From assembly GCF_900141765.1 (NCBI RefSeq), contig NZ_FSRK01000001.1:1798001-1862000 (forward strand): DNA of 64,000 bases. Direction: 5' to 3'. The notes beneath the pieces were generated by a model. The model did no database searches. It was not told where the DNA came from and worked only from the letters and a program-made list of their open reading frames with translations. Made by a program: the position numbers and the translations under genes. Below, one piece after another: positions 19,541 through 40,625 of the stretch. This DNA comes from Epilithonimonas zeae (GTDB taxonomy: Bacteria; Bacteroidota; Bacteroidia; Flavobacteriales; Weeksellaceae). Within the stretch, counting starts at the first letter, position 1. Each line of letters begins with the position of its first letter.

Positions 19541-20070
19541 TATCGCAAAGTCGCAAAAAGTGGATTGTAAAACAGACGAAAGTCGCAAAGTTTTTTATCT
19601 TCGATAAAAAAATACAATGGATGAAAATGAATTGGCAAAAATTGTCGTTGATTTAGGATTTAAAGTTTACAAAAAACTTGGTGCAGGTTTGTTCGAAAAC
19701 GTTTATGAAGAATGTCTTTTTCACGATATTAAAAAGTTTGGATTAAAAGTTGAGAAACAGAAATCATTATCAATAATTTATGATGACTTGATTATTGAGA
19801 ATGCTTTCAAAATTGATTTATTAGTAGAAGACAAATTAATTTTAGAAATAAAAACTGTTGATTACCTGAATGATGTTCACAAAGCACAAATTCTAACTTA
19901 TCTCAAAATGACGAATTATAAATTAGGATTGTTAATGAATTTCAGAACAGATTATTATAAAAACGGAATAAAAAGAGTTGTAAACAAACTTTAGAATTTA
20001 TCGAAGATAAACCTTGGCGACTTTTAAATAAAATAATAGTTAAAAAAAATTTGTGCCTTTGCGTTAAAAA
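19541..20070. mobile_element. Inverted-arm cassette carrying a GxxExxY gene
   Basis: Nested inverted words surround the gene. CGCAAAG (19544) pairs with CTTTGCG (20057). AAAGTCGC (19579-19586) pairs with GCGACTTT (20017-20024). The 15-base TTTATCTTCGATAAA (19594-19608) pairs perfectly with TTTATCGAAGATAAA (19997-20011). The arms fill both intergenic gaps, and the right arm abuts the ATG of the downstream ATPase gene. Calling it mobile is inference from this layout and from a related gene-less segment at 30251-30348. Confidence 0.55.
19617..19994 (+). CDS. GxxExxY protein (PD-(D/E)XK-like)
   Basis: 125 residues with the defining motif GLFENVYEE (GxxExxY), then FKIDLLVEDKLILEIKTV, which has the D...ExK arrangement of PD-(D/E)XK nuclease-fold proteins, and KAQILTYLKMT. 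The family is widespread as small solitary genes in Bacteroidetes and has no agreed function. It interrupts an iron ABC operon and sits between inverted repeat arms, so it looks like cargo rather than a part of the transporter. Confidence 0.9.
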   Translation: MDENELAKIVVDLGFKVYKKLGAGLFENVYEECLFHDIKKFGLKVEKQKSLSIIYDDLIIENAFKIDLLVEDKLILEIKTVDYLNDVHKAQILTYLKMTNYKLGLLMNFRTDYYKNGIKRVVNKL

Positions 20071-21018
20071 ATGAAGCATTTCCTAGACTTAAAAAATACA
20101 TCAATCGGCTATTCAGAACCATTAATTTCTGACATCAATACTTCCCTACAATTAGGCGAAGTTTGTTTATTAATGGGAAATAACGGTATTGGAAAAACGA
20201 CTTTAATCAAATCAATTCTTGGACAAAATAAGCTTTTAAAAGGTGAAATTTCTATTAATGGAAAATCAAATCAAAAACTTAATTCGAATGAAATAGCTTC
20301 TCAGATTGCTATTGTTTTTTCAAAAGCTGAAATTCCTGATAATTATACGGTTACAGATTTAATTTCGTTAGGAAAGTATATTCATTATCCTTATTATTTT
20401 AAATTGAATGAAACTGATAAACAAGAAATCTCTGATATCATAACCAAACTCAATTTATCAGAATATCAAAACAAAAAACTAACCGAATTATCTGACGGAA
20501 ACCTTCAAAAAGTCTTTATTGGTCGTGCTTTGGCTCAGAATTCTCCATTTATTATTCTGGATGAACCGACAACTCATTTGGATGAAGAAAATAAATTAAT
20601 GATTCTTTCACTTCTCAGAAATCTTGCAAAATCTGAAAATAAATTGATTCTTTTCTCTTCTCACGACTGGCGATTGGCAAAGGAATTTTCTGATAAAATC
20701 TGGTGGATTAAAGATAAAAAACTTATCAGAGGAATTTCGGAAGAAGTGATTCTTAGTAATCCTGAATTGATTACACCAAAGATTTTAGATTTTAATCAAA
20801 CCTTTCATCCTCCTGAAATTGATGCGCCGAAATTGGAAAAAGAAATGATGTTTTCTTTTTTACAAAAAAACTTCTCTCAGAATTTGCGGAAATTTAAATT
20901 GACGTTTAAAAATGATTTTTGGGAACTGAATTTGGATAATTTTTATGACAATTGTCATAGTTTTCAACAAATTAAACAGTCTCTGCAAACTCTTATTAAT
21001 AAAGGAAATTCTAACTAA
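20071..21018 (+). CDS. ABC transporter ATPase for the FecCD permease
   Basis: 315 residues. Walker A GNNGIGKTT (36-44), signature LSDGNLQKV, Walker B FIILDEPTTHLD and switch-loop HDWR. The last 75 or so residues are an extension beyond the usual ATPase, without recognisable motifs. Pairs with the permease encoded at 18569 to energise iron, siderophore or cobalamin import. The signature has Asp where the usual form is LSGG. Confidence 0.9.
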   Translation: MKHFLDLKNTSIGYSEPLISDINTSLQLGEVCLLMGNNGIGKTTLIKSILGQNKLLKGEISINGKSNQKLNSNEIASQIAIVFSKAEIPDNYTVTDLISLGKYIHYPYYFKLNETDKQEISDIITKLNLSEYQNKKLTELSDGNLQKVFIGRALAQNSPFIILDEPTTHLDEENKLMILSLLRNLAKSENKLILFSSHDWRLAKEFSDKIWWIKDKKLIRGISEEVILSNPELITPKILDFNQTFHPPEIDAPKLEKEMMFSFLQKNFSQNLRKFKLTFKNDFWELNLDNFYDNCHSFQQIKQSLQTLINKGNSN

Positions 21019-21100
21019 ATAGATTTTCTATAATTTTATTTAATAAGATTTGCATAATAATTAAAGCGTTGTAAATCAAATATTTAACCAACTTAATATA

Positions 21101-21126
21101 AAAATACTATGCATGCATAGTATTTT
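21101..21126. promoter_or_regulatory. 26-base perfect palindrome, probable MarR operator
   Basis: AAAATACTATGCA followed immediately by its exact reverse complement, without a loop. It ends 3 bases before the -7 element of the MarR-fad operon, covering the -33 region. This is an ideal repressor position for autoregulation by the adjacent MarR protein. A terminator is less likely since there is no loop, although T residues follow. Confidence 0.75.
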
Positions 21127-21129
21127 TTT

Positions 21130-21137
21130 TATATTTG
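21130..21137 (+). promoter_or_regulatory. TAnnTTTG -7 element of the MarR-fad operon
   Basis: TATATTTG, 16 bases before the first candidate ATG and directly downstream of the palindrome. Confidence 0.6.
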
Positions 21138-21153
21138 TATAAAGCACTTCAAT

Positions 21154-38803: not shown

Positions 38804-38810
38804 GTTTGAA

Positions 38811-39344
38811 ATGCAATATTCCATTAAATGCTCAAAAGACTTATCAGACAAAGAAATTGAGTTAATTTTGAAATCTTGGGAAATAGAAGATTGGTTTAAT
38901 TTGAATTCTTTTGACTTTAAAATCAAGTTTGAAAATTCTGAATTTCATTTCTTAGAAATTGAAGACAAAATTGTTTCATTAGCGAGAATCAACTTTAATT
39001 TTAGACTTGAAATCCAAAAGAATCTGTACAACTTTGCTGAATTTGTAGGATTTGTTTCTATTGAAAAAGCTAAAAAATATGGTAGTTTTTTATTTAATAA
39101 AATAGTAGCGAATCTAACTGAAAGAAAAATTGAAACTATAGGTTTTTGCAAAATGAATTTAAGACCATTTTATGAGAAAAATAACATACAAATCCTTTAT
39201 GGAAAAGGAATTTTCATAACAGAATTTGAAAATAATGAATGGATAGATTCTGACGACGATGATATTTTAATCCTCAGTACTTCCGAAGAACACATCAATA
39301 TTTTGCAAAATCTGAATGAACAGAATAAAGCAATTTTAATATAA
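38811..39344 (+). CDS. GNAT-like hypothetical protein
   Basis: 177 residues. The middle part (FVGFVSIEKAKKYGSFLFNKIVANLTERKIETIGFC, then LRPFYEKNNIQILYGKGIFI) follows the acetyl-CoA-binding and C-terminal strand pattern of GNAT acetyltransferases. The usual RGxGxG loop is degenerate (KKYGSFL). Identity as an acetyltransferase is tentative. Cotranscribed, starting 7 bases after the OsmC-family gene, within the trp operon. Confidence 0.6.
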   Translation: MQYSIKCSKDLSDKEIELILKSWEIEDWFNLNSFDFKIKFENSEFHFLEIEDKIVSLARINFNFRLEIQKNLYNFAEFVGFVSIEKAKKYGSFLFNKIVANLTERKIETIGFCKMNLRPFYEKNNIQILYGKGIFITEFENNEWIDSDDDDILILSTSEEHINILQNLNEQNKAILI

Positions 39345-39366
39345 CGATTTAGAAAATTTAAAATAA

Positions 39367-40545
39367 ATGAACTACCAAAACCCAGATAAAAACGGCTATT
39401 ACGGCGATTTCGGAGGCGCTTTCGTTCCCGAAATGCTTTACCCGAATGTTGCCGAATTACAGGAAAAATATATCCAAATCATCGAATCCGAAGAATTCCA
39501 AAATGAATTTCAGGATTTGCTGAAAAACTATGTTGGACGCGCTACACCACTTTATTTTGCGAAGAATCTGAGCGAAAAATATCAGACTCAAATCTATCTA
39601 AAAAGAGAAGATTTGAATCACACCGGAGCGCATAAAATCAACAATGCTTTAGGACAAGCTTTGCTCGCAAAAAAATTAGGAAAACATAGAATCATTGCTG
39701 AAACCGGAGCCGGACAACACGGTGTTGCAACGGCGACTGCCTGCGCACTTCTTGGCTTGGAATGCATTGTTTATATGGGCGAAGTTGATATTGCGAGACA
39801 ATCTCCCAATGTTGCTCGAATGAAGATGCTTGGCGCAACTGTGATTCCTGCAACTTCCGGTTCAAAAACTTTGAAAGACGCTGTGAATGAAGCTTTGCGA
39901 GACTGGATTAATAATCCTTCCACAACGCATTACATTATTGGAAGTGTGGTTGGTCCGCATCCATTTCCTGATTTGGTAGCGAGATTTCAAAGTGTTATTT
40001 CGAAAGAAATTAAAGAACAACTGAACGAAAAAATTGGGAGAGAAAATCCTGATTATATAATCGCTTGCGTTGGCGGCGGAAGTAATGCCGCAGGAACTTT
40101 TTATCATTATGTAAATGAAGAAAGTGTGAAAATTATTGCGGCGGAAGCTGGCGGTTTCGGCGTTGATTCAGGGAAATCTGCAGCGACAACTTTTCTTGGA
40201 ACTTTAGGAATTTTACACGGAAGTCAAAGTCTCGTAATGCAGACAGAAGACGGGCAAGTCATAGAGCCTCATTCAATTTCTGCAGGTTTGGATTATCCGG
40301 GAATTGGTCCGATGCACGCCAATCTGTTCAACCAAAAAAGAGCAGAATTTTTCAGTATTAATGATGACGAAGCTTTGAAATCTGCCTTTGAACTGACAAA
40401 AATCGAAGGCATCATTCCGGCTTTGGAGAGTGCACACGCTTTGGCTGTTTTGGATAAAAAGAAATTTGAAAAAGATGATGTTGTCGTGATTTGCCTTTCT
40501 GGTCGTGGCGATAAGGATATGCAAACGTATTTGAAACATCTTTAA
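39367..40545 (+). CDS. trpB: Tryptophan synthase beta chain
   Basis: 392 residues. PLP enzyme: [19 protein letters not shown] with Schiff-base Lys90, [31 protein letters not shown] (phosphate loop), [11 protein letters not shown] and LSGRGDKD. Condenses indole and serine. Starts [17 protein letters not shown] ([14 protein letters not shown]), normal for TrpB1. Confidence 0.96.
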
Positions 40546-40548
40546 ATC

Positions 40549-40625
40549 TGTAAAATGTAAAACGTATTTATGTATTTATGATTCTCAATCGTTAATACAT
40601 TTTACGTCAATACTTTAATACATTA
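40549..40625. repeat. Gene-less copy of the four-helix-bundle cassette arms
   Basis: The left arm begins TGTAAAATGTAAAA (40549) and the right arm spans 40591-40625, separated by ten unique bases. GTAAAATGTA (40550-40559) is matched by TACATTTTAC (40596-40605). By eye, 27 of the first 30 left-arm bases equal those at 24031-24060, and the right arm is similar to 24432-24461. Fills the trpB-trpA gap and ends 6 bases before trpA. Confidence 0.75.

Follow-up and report, generated by a model that had tools for sequence, protein, structure and literature searches.

The 23S rRNA intervening sequences of Coxiella, Leptospira and Brucella carry an S23p open reading frame (ORF) of family PF05635, a four-helix-bundle (4HB) protein, between inverted arms. 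In the part of the source drawn on here, the Coxiella sequence has tandem heptamers (GACAGAT) 5′ of the ORF and a 28-bp terminal stem, and a 4HB relative is cited as a homopentameric toroid (PMC4990558). Heptamer repeats without a known function have been reported, in the sections we consulted, from Xanthomonas (GGGAATC, often as convergent pairs) and Nostoc (PMC4692102), and from Beggiatoaceae (TAACTGA), cyanobacteria and Bacteroidetes (PMC4679880); a hairpin of the STRR type sits between hupS and hupL, according to the available portion of PMC2670836. Here we consider a 64,000-nucleotide (nt) stretch of the genome of Epilithonimonas zeae (GCF_900141765.1, contig NZ_FSRK01000001.1, positions 1,798,001 to 1,862,000), hereafter the window. 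In it, three small genes, two of the 4HB family and one for a GxxExxY protein that resembles PD-(D/E)XK nucleases, each lie between two inverted arms of short repeated words. We lean towards the view that they represent two analogous families of small mobile cassettes whose arms are recognised as DNA. The phenomenon is real and widespread, and broader than the window in which it was first observed. There is good support for the anatomy of the elements and for their exchange between species; how they work at the molecular level is a proposal. The elements of the window are the following.

19538-20070, plus strand: element E1, with a GxxExxY gene, between co-directional genes
19538-19608, plus strand: E1 left arm, CGCAAAG-type words, starting directly after the stop codon of a FecCD-like permease gene
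19617-19994, plus strand: E1 cargo, GxxExxY protein, PD-(D/E)XK nuclease-like (TIGR04256, PF13366)
19997-20069, plus strand: E1 right arm, an inverted copy of the left arm, stopping just 5′ of an ABC ATPase gene
24024-24471, plus strand: element E2, with a 4HB gene, between co-directional genes
24027-24058, plus strand: E2 left arm, TGTAAAA-type heptamers, 3′ of the fadB stop codon
24063-24425, plus strand: E2 cargo, 4HB protein (TIGR02436, PF05635 23S_rRNA_IVP)
24426-24457, plus strand: E2 right arm, complementary to the left arm
25648-26090, plus strand: element E3, with a 4HB gene, between co-directional genes
25659-25677, plus strand: E3 left arm, AGAATAA-type heptamers, 3′ of the thiolase gene
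25687-26043, plus strand: E3 cargo, second 4HB protein (TIGR02436/PF05635), with a weak Avd match under the model cut-off
26052-26070, plus strand: E3 right arm, complementary to the left arm
30236-30356, minus strand: gene-less element between two genes of the minus strand, words of the GxxExxY type
40546-40631, plus strand: gene-less hairpin between trpB and trpA, heptamer words identical to those of E2
36231-36303, plus strand: candidate gene-less hairpin between trpD and trpC, unsupported on its own (z -1.1)

The three cargo-bearing elements had been noticed in a preliminary description of this DNA, and their arms indeed exceed what dinucleotide shuffling yields. Complementarity between the 5′ and 3′ gaps scored 39 in E1 and 38 in E3, against null maxima of 25 and 28 (0 of 200 shuffles in either case), and 29 in E2, where the null maximum was also 29 (p 0.01, or 0.02 under a lenient scheme). 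That the arms contain no evident terminator also held: a scan of 19400-28000 gave 6 terminator-like sites against 6.2 expected, none of them within the arms of E1-E3, and one of the six, at 27903, lies 3′ of the acyl-CoA dehydrogenase gene. The window contains both 4HB genes of the source genome, in which two GxxExxY genes exceed the cut-off.

For a wider view we searched 23 genomes of the genus, which gave 118 matches to the 4HB family and 88 to the GxxExxY family. All of the former and 80 of the latter were used, eight below-cut-off matches in long ORFs being dropped, and one further GxxExxY copy with too short a flank was excluded from the arm test (n = 79). Genes around the copies are simple longest-ORF calls. 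Cuts on arm score (25 to 28), exclusion of internal stops, or both were applied in the analyses of period, mismatches, word sharing, register, divergence and arm ends, and, since copies that share a junction are related, the pairs counted are not independent of one another. Inverted flanks at or above the 99th percentile of shuffles were found at 90 of 118 4HB and 57 of 79 GxxExxY copies, whereas mismatched pairs of left and right flanks reach that percentile in only 6.4% and 11.4% of cases; the excess of inverted arms around both families, on which the preliminary description had staked its model, is thus borne out. Most 4HB copies (112 of 118) lie between two co-directional genes, where background gene triples at the same loci are alike in orientation in 392 of 475 cases. 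Within co-directional gene pairs the cargo is read in the sense of its neighbours in 112 of 114 4HB and 76 of 77 GxxExxY copies. The left arm begins no more than 10 nt from the upstream stop codon in 93 of 159 copies with good arms.

The two families are built alike and written differently. In 4HB elements the arms have a period of seven: the autocorrelation of 96 good arms from outside the genus peaks at lags 7, 14, 21 and 28 (z 35, 22, 16 and 11), and among lags 5-12 the best is 7 in 52 of 76 elements of the genus and 47 of 55 elsewhere. Some columns of the unit are fixed and others vary (heterogeneity 809 against a simulated mean of 685 and maximum of 773, in 200 simulations of 136 arrays). 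In the left arm, G outnumbers C in 69 of 73 cases in the genus, and the reverse holds in none; in the wider set G exceeds C in 42 and falls below it in 3 of 48. Pairing of the two arms amounts to 0.83 in register, 0.55-0.58 when shifted by one word and 0.27-0.35 off phase. Because pairing in register exceeds that shifted by a word, the right arm repeats the left one in inverted form and is more than a second array. GxxExxY arms have no peak at lag 7, the best lag being 9 in 17 and 8 in 13 of 57 elements; their words are of CRCARAG type, longer than heptamers and often spaced 8-10 nt. Words of the form CRCRDAG stand left of 35 of 80 GxxExxY but 4 of 118 4HB genes of the genus (p 1e-12), and left of 10 of 29 against 7 of 80 in other genomes (p 0.002). 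As period and words differ, the first description of one arm design common to the two cargo families is rejected. Among pairs at non-orthologous sites, arm words are common to all 13 whose proteins are at least 65% identical (about four site pairs), as against 0.4-1% of pairs below 45%.

The same arm anatomy recurs outside the genus. The wider 4HB set, namely the best 80 of 586 as ranked by their similarity to a query with the window proteins at its head, is mostly from Bacteroidota, with Proteobacteria, Acidobacteria, Verrucomicrobia, Planctomycetes (Gemmataceae), Chloroflexi (Anaerolineae), Ignavibacteriae, Peregrinibacteria and one archaeon, whose single locus is without arms. Against mismatched pairs, 64 of the 80 loci reach at least the 95th percentile and 30 exceed the 99th. 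About 27 of the 80 adjoin fadB, thl (thiolase) or acd (acyl-CoA dehydrogenase) in those operons, which is partly an effect of selection by the query. For GxxExxY, 29 of 36 places in other genomes were analysed; the 29 come from 13 genomes or records, several from Bacteroidota, the arms being scored without a mismatched-pair null; clear arms beyond the genus were seen in Gemmataceae, a betaproteobacterium, Ignavibacteriae, Algoriphagus and a Methanophagales archaeon. Between fabD and fabG of Sphingomonas sits a GxxExxY gene that has GxxExxY-type words on the left side only. Plasmids carry elements as well. Among records with matches, 4 of 25 were fetched for 4HB, and all four loci have arms; 6 of 7 were fetched for GxxExxY, and three of six loci have arms (Bernardetia, Bacteroides, Gemmatirosa). 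On a Pseudanabaena plasmid (L227, 1495-1854) a 4HB element with heptamer arms sits between cas6 and cas4, and on a Nostoc plasmid (L225, 1492-1860) another, in antisense, lies between ribonucleotide reductase genes. Two Flavobacterium 4HB elements (L292, L285) have arms of the GTTCAAAGG/GTACAAAGG type, which in style resemble GxxExxY words more than they do heptamers. In two genomes of Flavobacterium columnare, a 4HB gene between the genes for guanylate kinase and nicotinate mononucleotide adenylyltransferase is tabled as a phage element in the part of the report drawn on here (PMC5524665); it may be a further cassette of the same kind.

Junction by junction, the occupants change from species to species. 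At fadB>thl, four of the 23 genomes have a bare gap of 29-30 nt, eleven have one of three 4HB clades, five an IS200-like transposase, two its remnant and one an unrelated ORF; the comparison of occupied with empty sites that had been called for is thus provided, between species of a genus and not between strains. At thl>acd, nineteen genomes have one of three 4HB clades and four a YhcG/DUF1016 nuclease gene (L004, L006, L007, L008) without word arms, listed by PADLOC under PDC-S02. The 177 intact copies among the 198 fall into 52 junctions, 37 of which hold at least two copies. More than one cargo clade (at a cut of 60% identity) occurs at 11 of these 37, where 65 insertions placed at random over 1000 junctions, an assumed number, would give about two, and one junction holds a 4HB gene in five genomes and a GxxExxY gene in another. 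The early suggestion of interchangeable cargo is supported in this sense. At fecCD>abc in L058-L061, another short palindromic repeat, of the GTCATTC...GAATGAC type, is found where other species hold GxxExxY elements.

On a tree of thl, trpB and abc from the 23 genomes, with junction states assigned by eye, the minimum numbers of state changes at four junctions are 11, 12, 11 and 11. Shuffling the state labels of thl>acd gives a mean of 12.4, and 39 of 200 shuffles are as low as observed. Among pairs of genomes with the same cargo at thl>acd, third-position identity at conserved residues is higher in the cargo than in each of thl, trpB and abc in 52 of 56 pairs, and higher than their mean in all 56. 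Since the states change on the tree and cargo identity is this high, cargo has probably crossed species boundaries after the split and yet entered the same junction. Beyond the cargo, the last 100 nt of thl are 2.2% more identical between same-cargo genomes (0 of 300 permutations); at the fadB end the extra identity is weak (p 0.03 for 100-200 nt and 0.10 for 0-100 nt), and downstream of both junctions tested there is none.

Such exchange does not of itself demand mobility. The cargo genes, some of them defence-like, may be alternative alleles of their junctions, moved by homologous recombination and kept diverse by selection, with arms that are repeats gathered, by slippage and template switching, at junctions that tolerate them. 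The restricted number of junctions just given would fit this, as would the presence of YhcG, a phage-defence candidate, among the occupants, the exchange between species and the lack of a clear target duplication. We nevertheless regard it as rather unlikely, in view of arm styles that are specific to the family, close relatives at other junctions with the same words, co-travelling flank tracts that are short and one-sided, and 4HB arms that evolve five times slower than fourfold sites. The last point comes from 76 pairs, in which divergence is 4.8% in arms, 13.5% in other intergenic DNA and 24.1% at fourfold sites of the cargo; for GxxExxY (92 pairs) the figures are 12.1%, 18.5% and 29.0%. 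It should be noted that the arms were defined by their own complementarity, so that the comparison favours those that are well kept.

What, then, keeps the arms? Another possibility is that they are RNA hairpins, the element being excised from the operon mRNA or cut within it by RNase III, so that RNA pairing is selected and the ORF is a passenger. The protein family and the inverted arms are indeed as in the RNase III-excised intervening sequences of 23S rRNA (in the part of PMC4990558 referred to above). Nearly all copies are in sense, two of the gene-less copies fold well as RNA, and in GxxExxY orthologues 31 double changes that keep pairing were counted against 4.6 expected, in pairs that are not independent. 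Against this, mismatches of the G-U and the A-C type are equally frequent, at 66:68, 46:56 and 42:54 in three data sets (112:124 over both 4HB sets) and at 27:33 and 63:64 between orthologues. Among 4HB orthologues, 180 arm changes are one-sided and only 3 compensatory, against 1.4 expected, and it is the letters of the arms that are conserved. In three antisense 4HB copies (two orthologous, one of these with weak arms) the G/C polarity of the arms follows the copy's own gene, and not the operon. Selection of RNA hairpins is for these reasons unlikely; as the force that keeps the arms, RNA pairing finds no support in 4HB elements, and GxxExxY arms show some double changes. A shared system of mobility or of RNA processing had been suggested at the outset: empty and occupied sites and transfer between species uphold the first part, and the mismatch counts and the lack of a compensatory excess in 4HB arms speak against the second.

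As there is no excess of G-U mismatches and no excess of compensatory changes in 4HB arms, and arm letters diverge slowly, the sequences point to recognition of the letters themselves, most simply as DNA. Since words are specific to the family and close proteins share them, we infer that the cargo protein is the reader of its own words. That an IS200-like transposase of the RAYT type acts in trans to move the cassettes, in the way that RAYTs move REPINs, is very improbable: Y1 transposases are present in 21 of the 23 genomes, and Y1 genes with REP-like arms (five genomes) or their remnants (two) stand at fadB>thl (loci L002-L024), but the source genome and G001 have no Y1 match (E≤1e-8) and yet have both cassette families, leaving dependence on Y1 unsupported, and by eye the arm words are unlike the arms of the Y1 element. 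Y1 genes also lie directly 5′ of trpB in five genomes. The Pfam assignments come from one Y1 copy and one YhcG copy (L004).

The cassette that we propose consists of a single gene, for a 4HB protein or a GxxExxY nuclease, between a left arm and its inverted copy, both of them arrays of short degenerate words specific to the family (7 nt for 4HB, CRCARAG-type for GxxExxY). Typically its left arm is placed at the stop codon of an operon gene and its right end just 5′ of the next. Because it is read in the sense of the operon and has no terminator of its own, its insertion would be tolerated. The words would be recognised, as DNA, by the cassette's own protein, and the spread of cassettes to a fixed junction would amount to a homing-like replacement of one allele by another, driven by the nuclease in GxxExxY cassettes and brought about through host recombination or replication in those with 4HB.

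Several observations weigh against this proposal. A target-site duplication, as expected of a classical IS or MITE, gave no clear signal in three sets, shared words of at least 5 nt outside the arms numbering 7, 0 and 12 against 3.6, 2.4 and 7.6 expected, with arm ends that are fuzzy; the mean shared word is about that of mismatched pairs. Arms are weak or absent at 17 of the 29 GxxExxY loci of other genomes and at three of the six on plasmids. A comparison of protein with arm-word similarity over 58 non-orthologous representatives was null (Mantel rho -0.08, p 0.93), and the link between the two was accordingly dropped as a global one and retained for close proteins only. The extra flank identity, small and confined to the upstream side, is thin evidence for homing and leaves room for ordinary recombination. 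No recognised mobility enzyme accompanies the 4HB cassette. Finally, gene-less copies of the GxxExxY type occur in co-directional, convergent and divergent gaps, and so are not limited to operons.

Such gene-less relatives recur in the source genome. The pattern CRCAAAGNCRCAAAG, with one mismatch allowed, has 27 matches there against 6 for the reversed pattern; two of the 27 lie in E1 and ten form five converging gene-less pairs 83-123 nt apart. The preliminary description had counted two gene-less elements without giving coordinates, a claim that stands for two of the three sites in our list. At 30236-30356 both RNA folding (z -3.8, 1 of 200 shuffles) and the inverted repeat (p 0.00 strict, 0.01 lenient) are supported; at 40546-40631 the fold is supported (z -3.8, 0 of 200) and the inverted repeat is weak (p 0.04 strict, 0.13 lenient); at 36231-36303 neither is significant (fold z -1.1, inverted repeat p 0.05 and 0.13). 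A hairpin scan of the window plus 400 kb found scores of at least 30 in 8 of 153 co-directional gaps (1.0 expected), 9 of 38 convergent gaps (0 expected), some of which resemble terminators, and 1 of 35 divergent gaps (0.3 expected); this threshold misses both supported gene-less hairpins of the window, and gene-less heptamer copies were left uncounted genome-wide. We take the gene-less hairpins to be non-autonomous derivatives. At the trpB>trpA junction (loci L025-L047) the arm words differ among species, and in some they seem to enter the end of trpB, where they would write its last residues and stop codon. A conserved gap of another kind lies between abc and marR (window 21019-21153): it is 138-139 nt long in all 23 genomes and has in each the palindrome ACTATGCATGCATAGT 5′ of the MarR-type gene, of which it is perhaps the operator.

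The two cargo proteins differ in what they reveal of themselves. In 51 aligned GxxExxY sequences E27, Y30, D67 and K79 are invariant, and E77, Q91 and Y95 are kept in at least 90%, which gives the PD-(D/E)XK signature of a catalytic D followed by ExK, plus QxxxY. The predicted structure (predicted local distance difference test, pLDDT, 97.1) is nearest to SSO0001, AddAB, Bax1 and lambda exonuclease, with modest scores; the best match in the PDB is SSO0001 (4ic1), which we take to be a Cas4 protein, at E 1.3e-3, none being at 1e-3 or better. PADLOC returned a weak Cas4b match (E 3.5e-4). By sequence, P0001 had no PDB match at E≤0.1, and, as the single query against viral contigs, it gave 5 pattern matches, none of them a relative. 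The 4HB protein P0003 matched 2gsc and 2rld, one PDB entry each with five chains, and had no match among phage records.

Should the proposal be right, two widespread protein families without an assigned function would gain a role, and heptamer repeats, STRR hairpins and the origin of rRNA intervening sequences would have one explanation. The operon junctions named here, at which rival cassettes replace each other between species, make mobility directly testable. For annotation, the proposal would mean that 4HB and GxxExxY genes found in operons for fatty-acid oxidation, or in fab or cas operons, are probably visitors and not part of the operon's function. In the literature searched, limited to this library and these terms and seen in part, no paper linked arms of this kind in operons with the genes of either family.

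How do the cassettes compare with known systems? With the intervening sequences of 23S rRNA, E2 and E3 share a PF05635 gene between inverted arms, and E1 does not. Unlike them, E2 and E3 lie among genes for FadB, thiolase and acyl-CoA dehydrogenase and not in a 23S helix, and the elements described here have many word types, exchange at fixed junctions between species and gene-less relatives, with 4HB arms that give no sign of selection for RNA pairing. Diversity-generating retroelements resemble them only in the sequence profile of Avd, matched by P0003 alone (E 1.4e-8, below the cut-off); the partnership with a reverse transcriptase that the preliminary description had raised did not hold, the enzyme occurring in 8 of 23 genomes (E≤1e-5) and 4HB genes in all 23, so that dependence on it is unsupported. 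RAYT/REPIN systems also place a small gene between inverted repeats in intergenic DNA and have non-autonomous copies, and a Y1 element occupies one of the same junctions, but the cassettes carry PF05635 or PF13366 and no Y1 (HuH) transposase, and their arms are arrays of words and not one palindrome. Homing endonuclease cassettes likewise spread across species at fixed sites, and the nuclease signature of GxxExxY is intact; here there is no intron or intein, and the 4HB protein has no nuclease motif. The likeness examined was that in the pattern of spread. In the form of their arms the cassettes resemble the STRR and other heptamer repeats, intergenic 7-nt words whose tandem degenerate heptamers, taken for STRR from descriptions, are matched by 4HB arms and not by GxxExxY arms. 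The portions consulted name no mobility gene for them, and the term S23 is absent from PMC4679880 and PMC4692102, whereas the heptamer-like arms described here flank 4HB genes in Bacteroidota and on cyanobacterial plasmids. By this analogy we propose a union with the heptamer repeats of Xanthomonas, Beggiatoaceae and cyanobacteria. More tentatively, for we hold it a little less probable than its opposite, there may be an undescribed class of homing-like cassettes in bacteria and archaea, each encoding a small protein (a 4HB pentamer or a GxxExxY nuclease) that reads the words of the cassette's inverted arms. Such cassettes would enter operons at stop codons and displace rivals there across species; STRR hairpins, the heptamers of Xanthomonas and Beggiatoaceae and the intervening sequences of 23S rRNA would then be scattered relatives and gene-less derivatives of this class.

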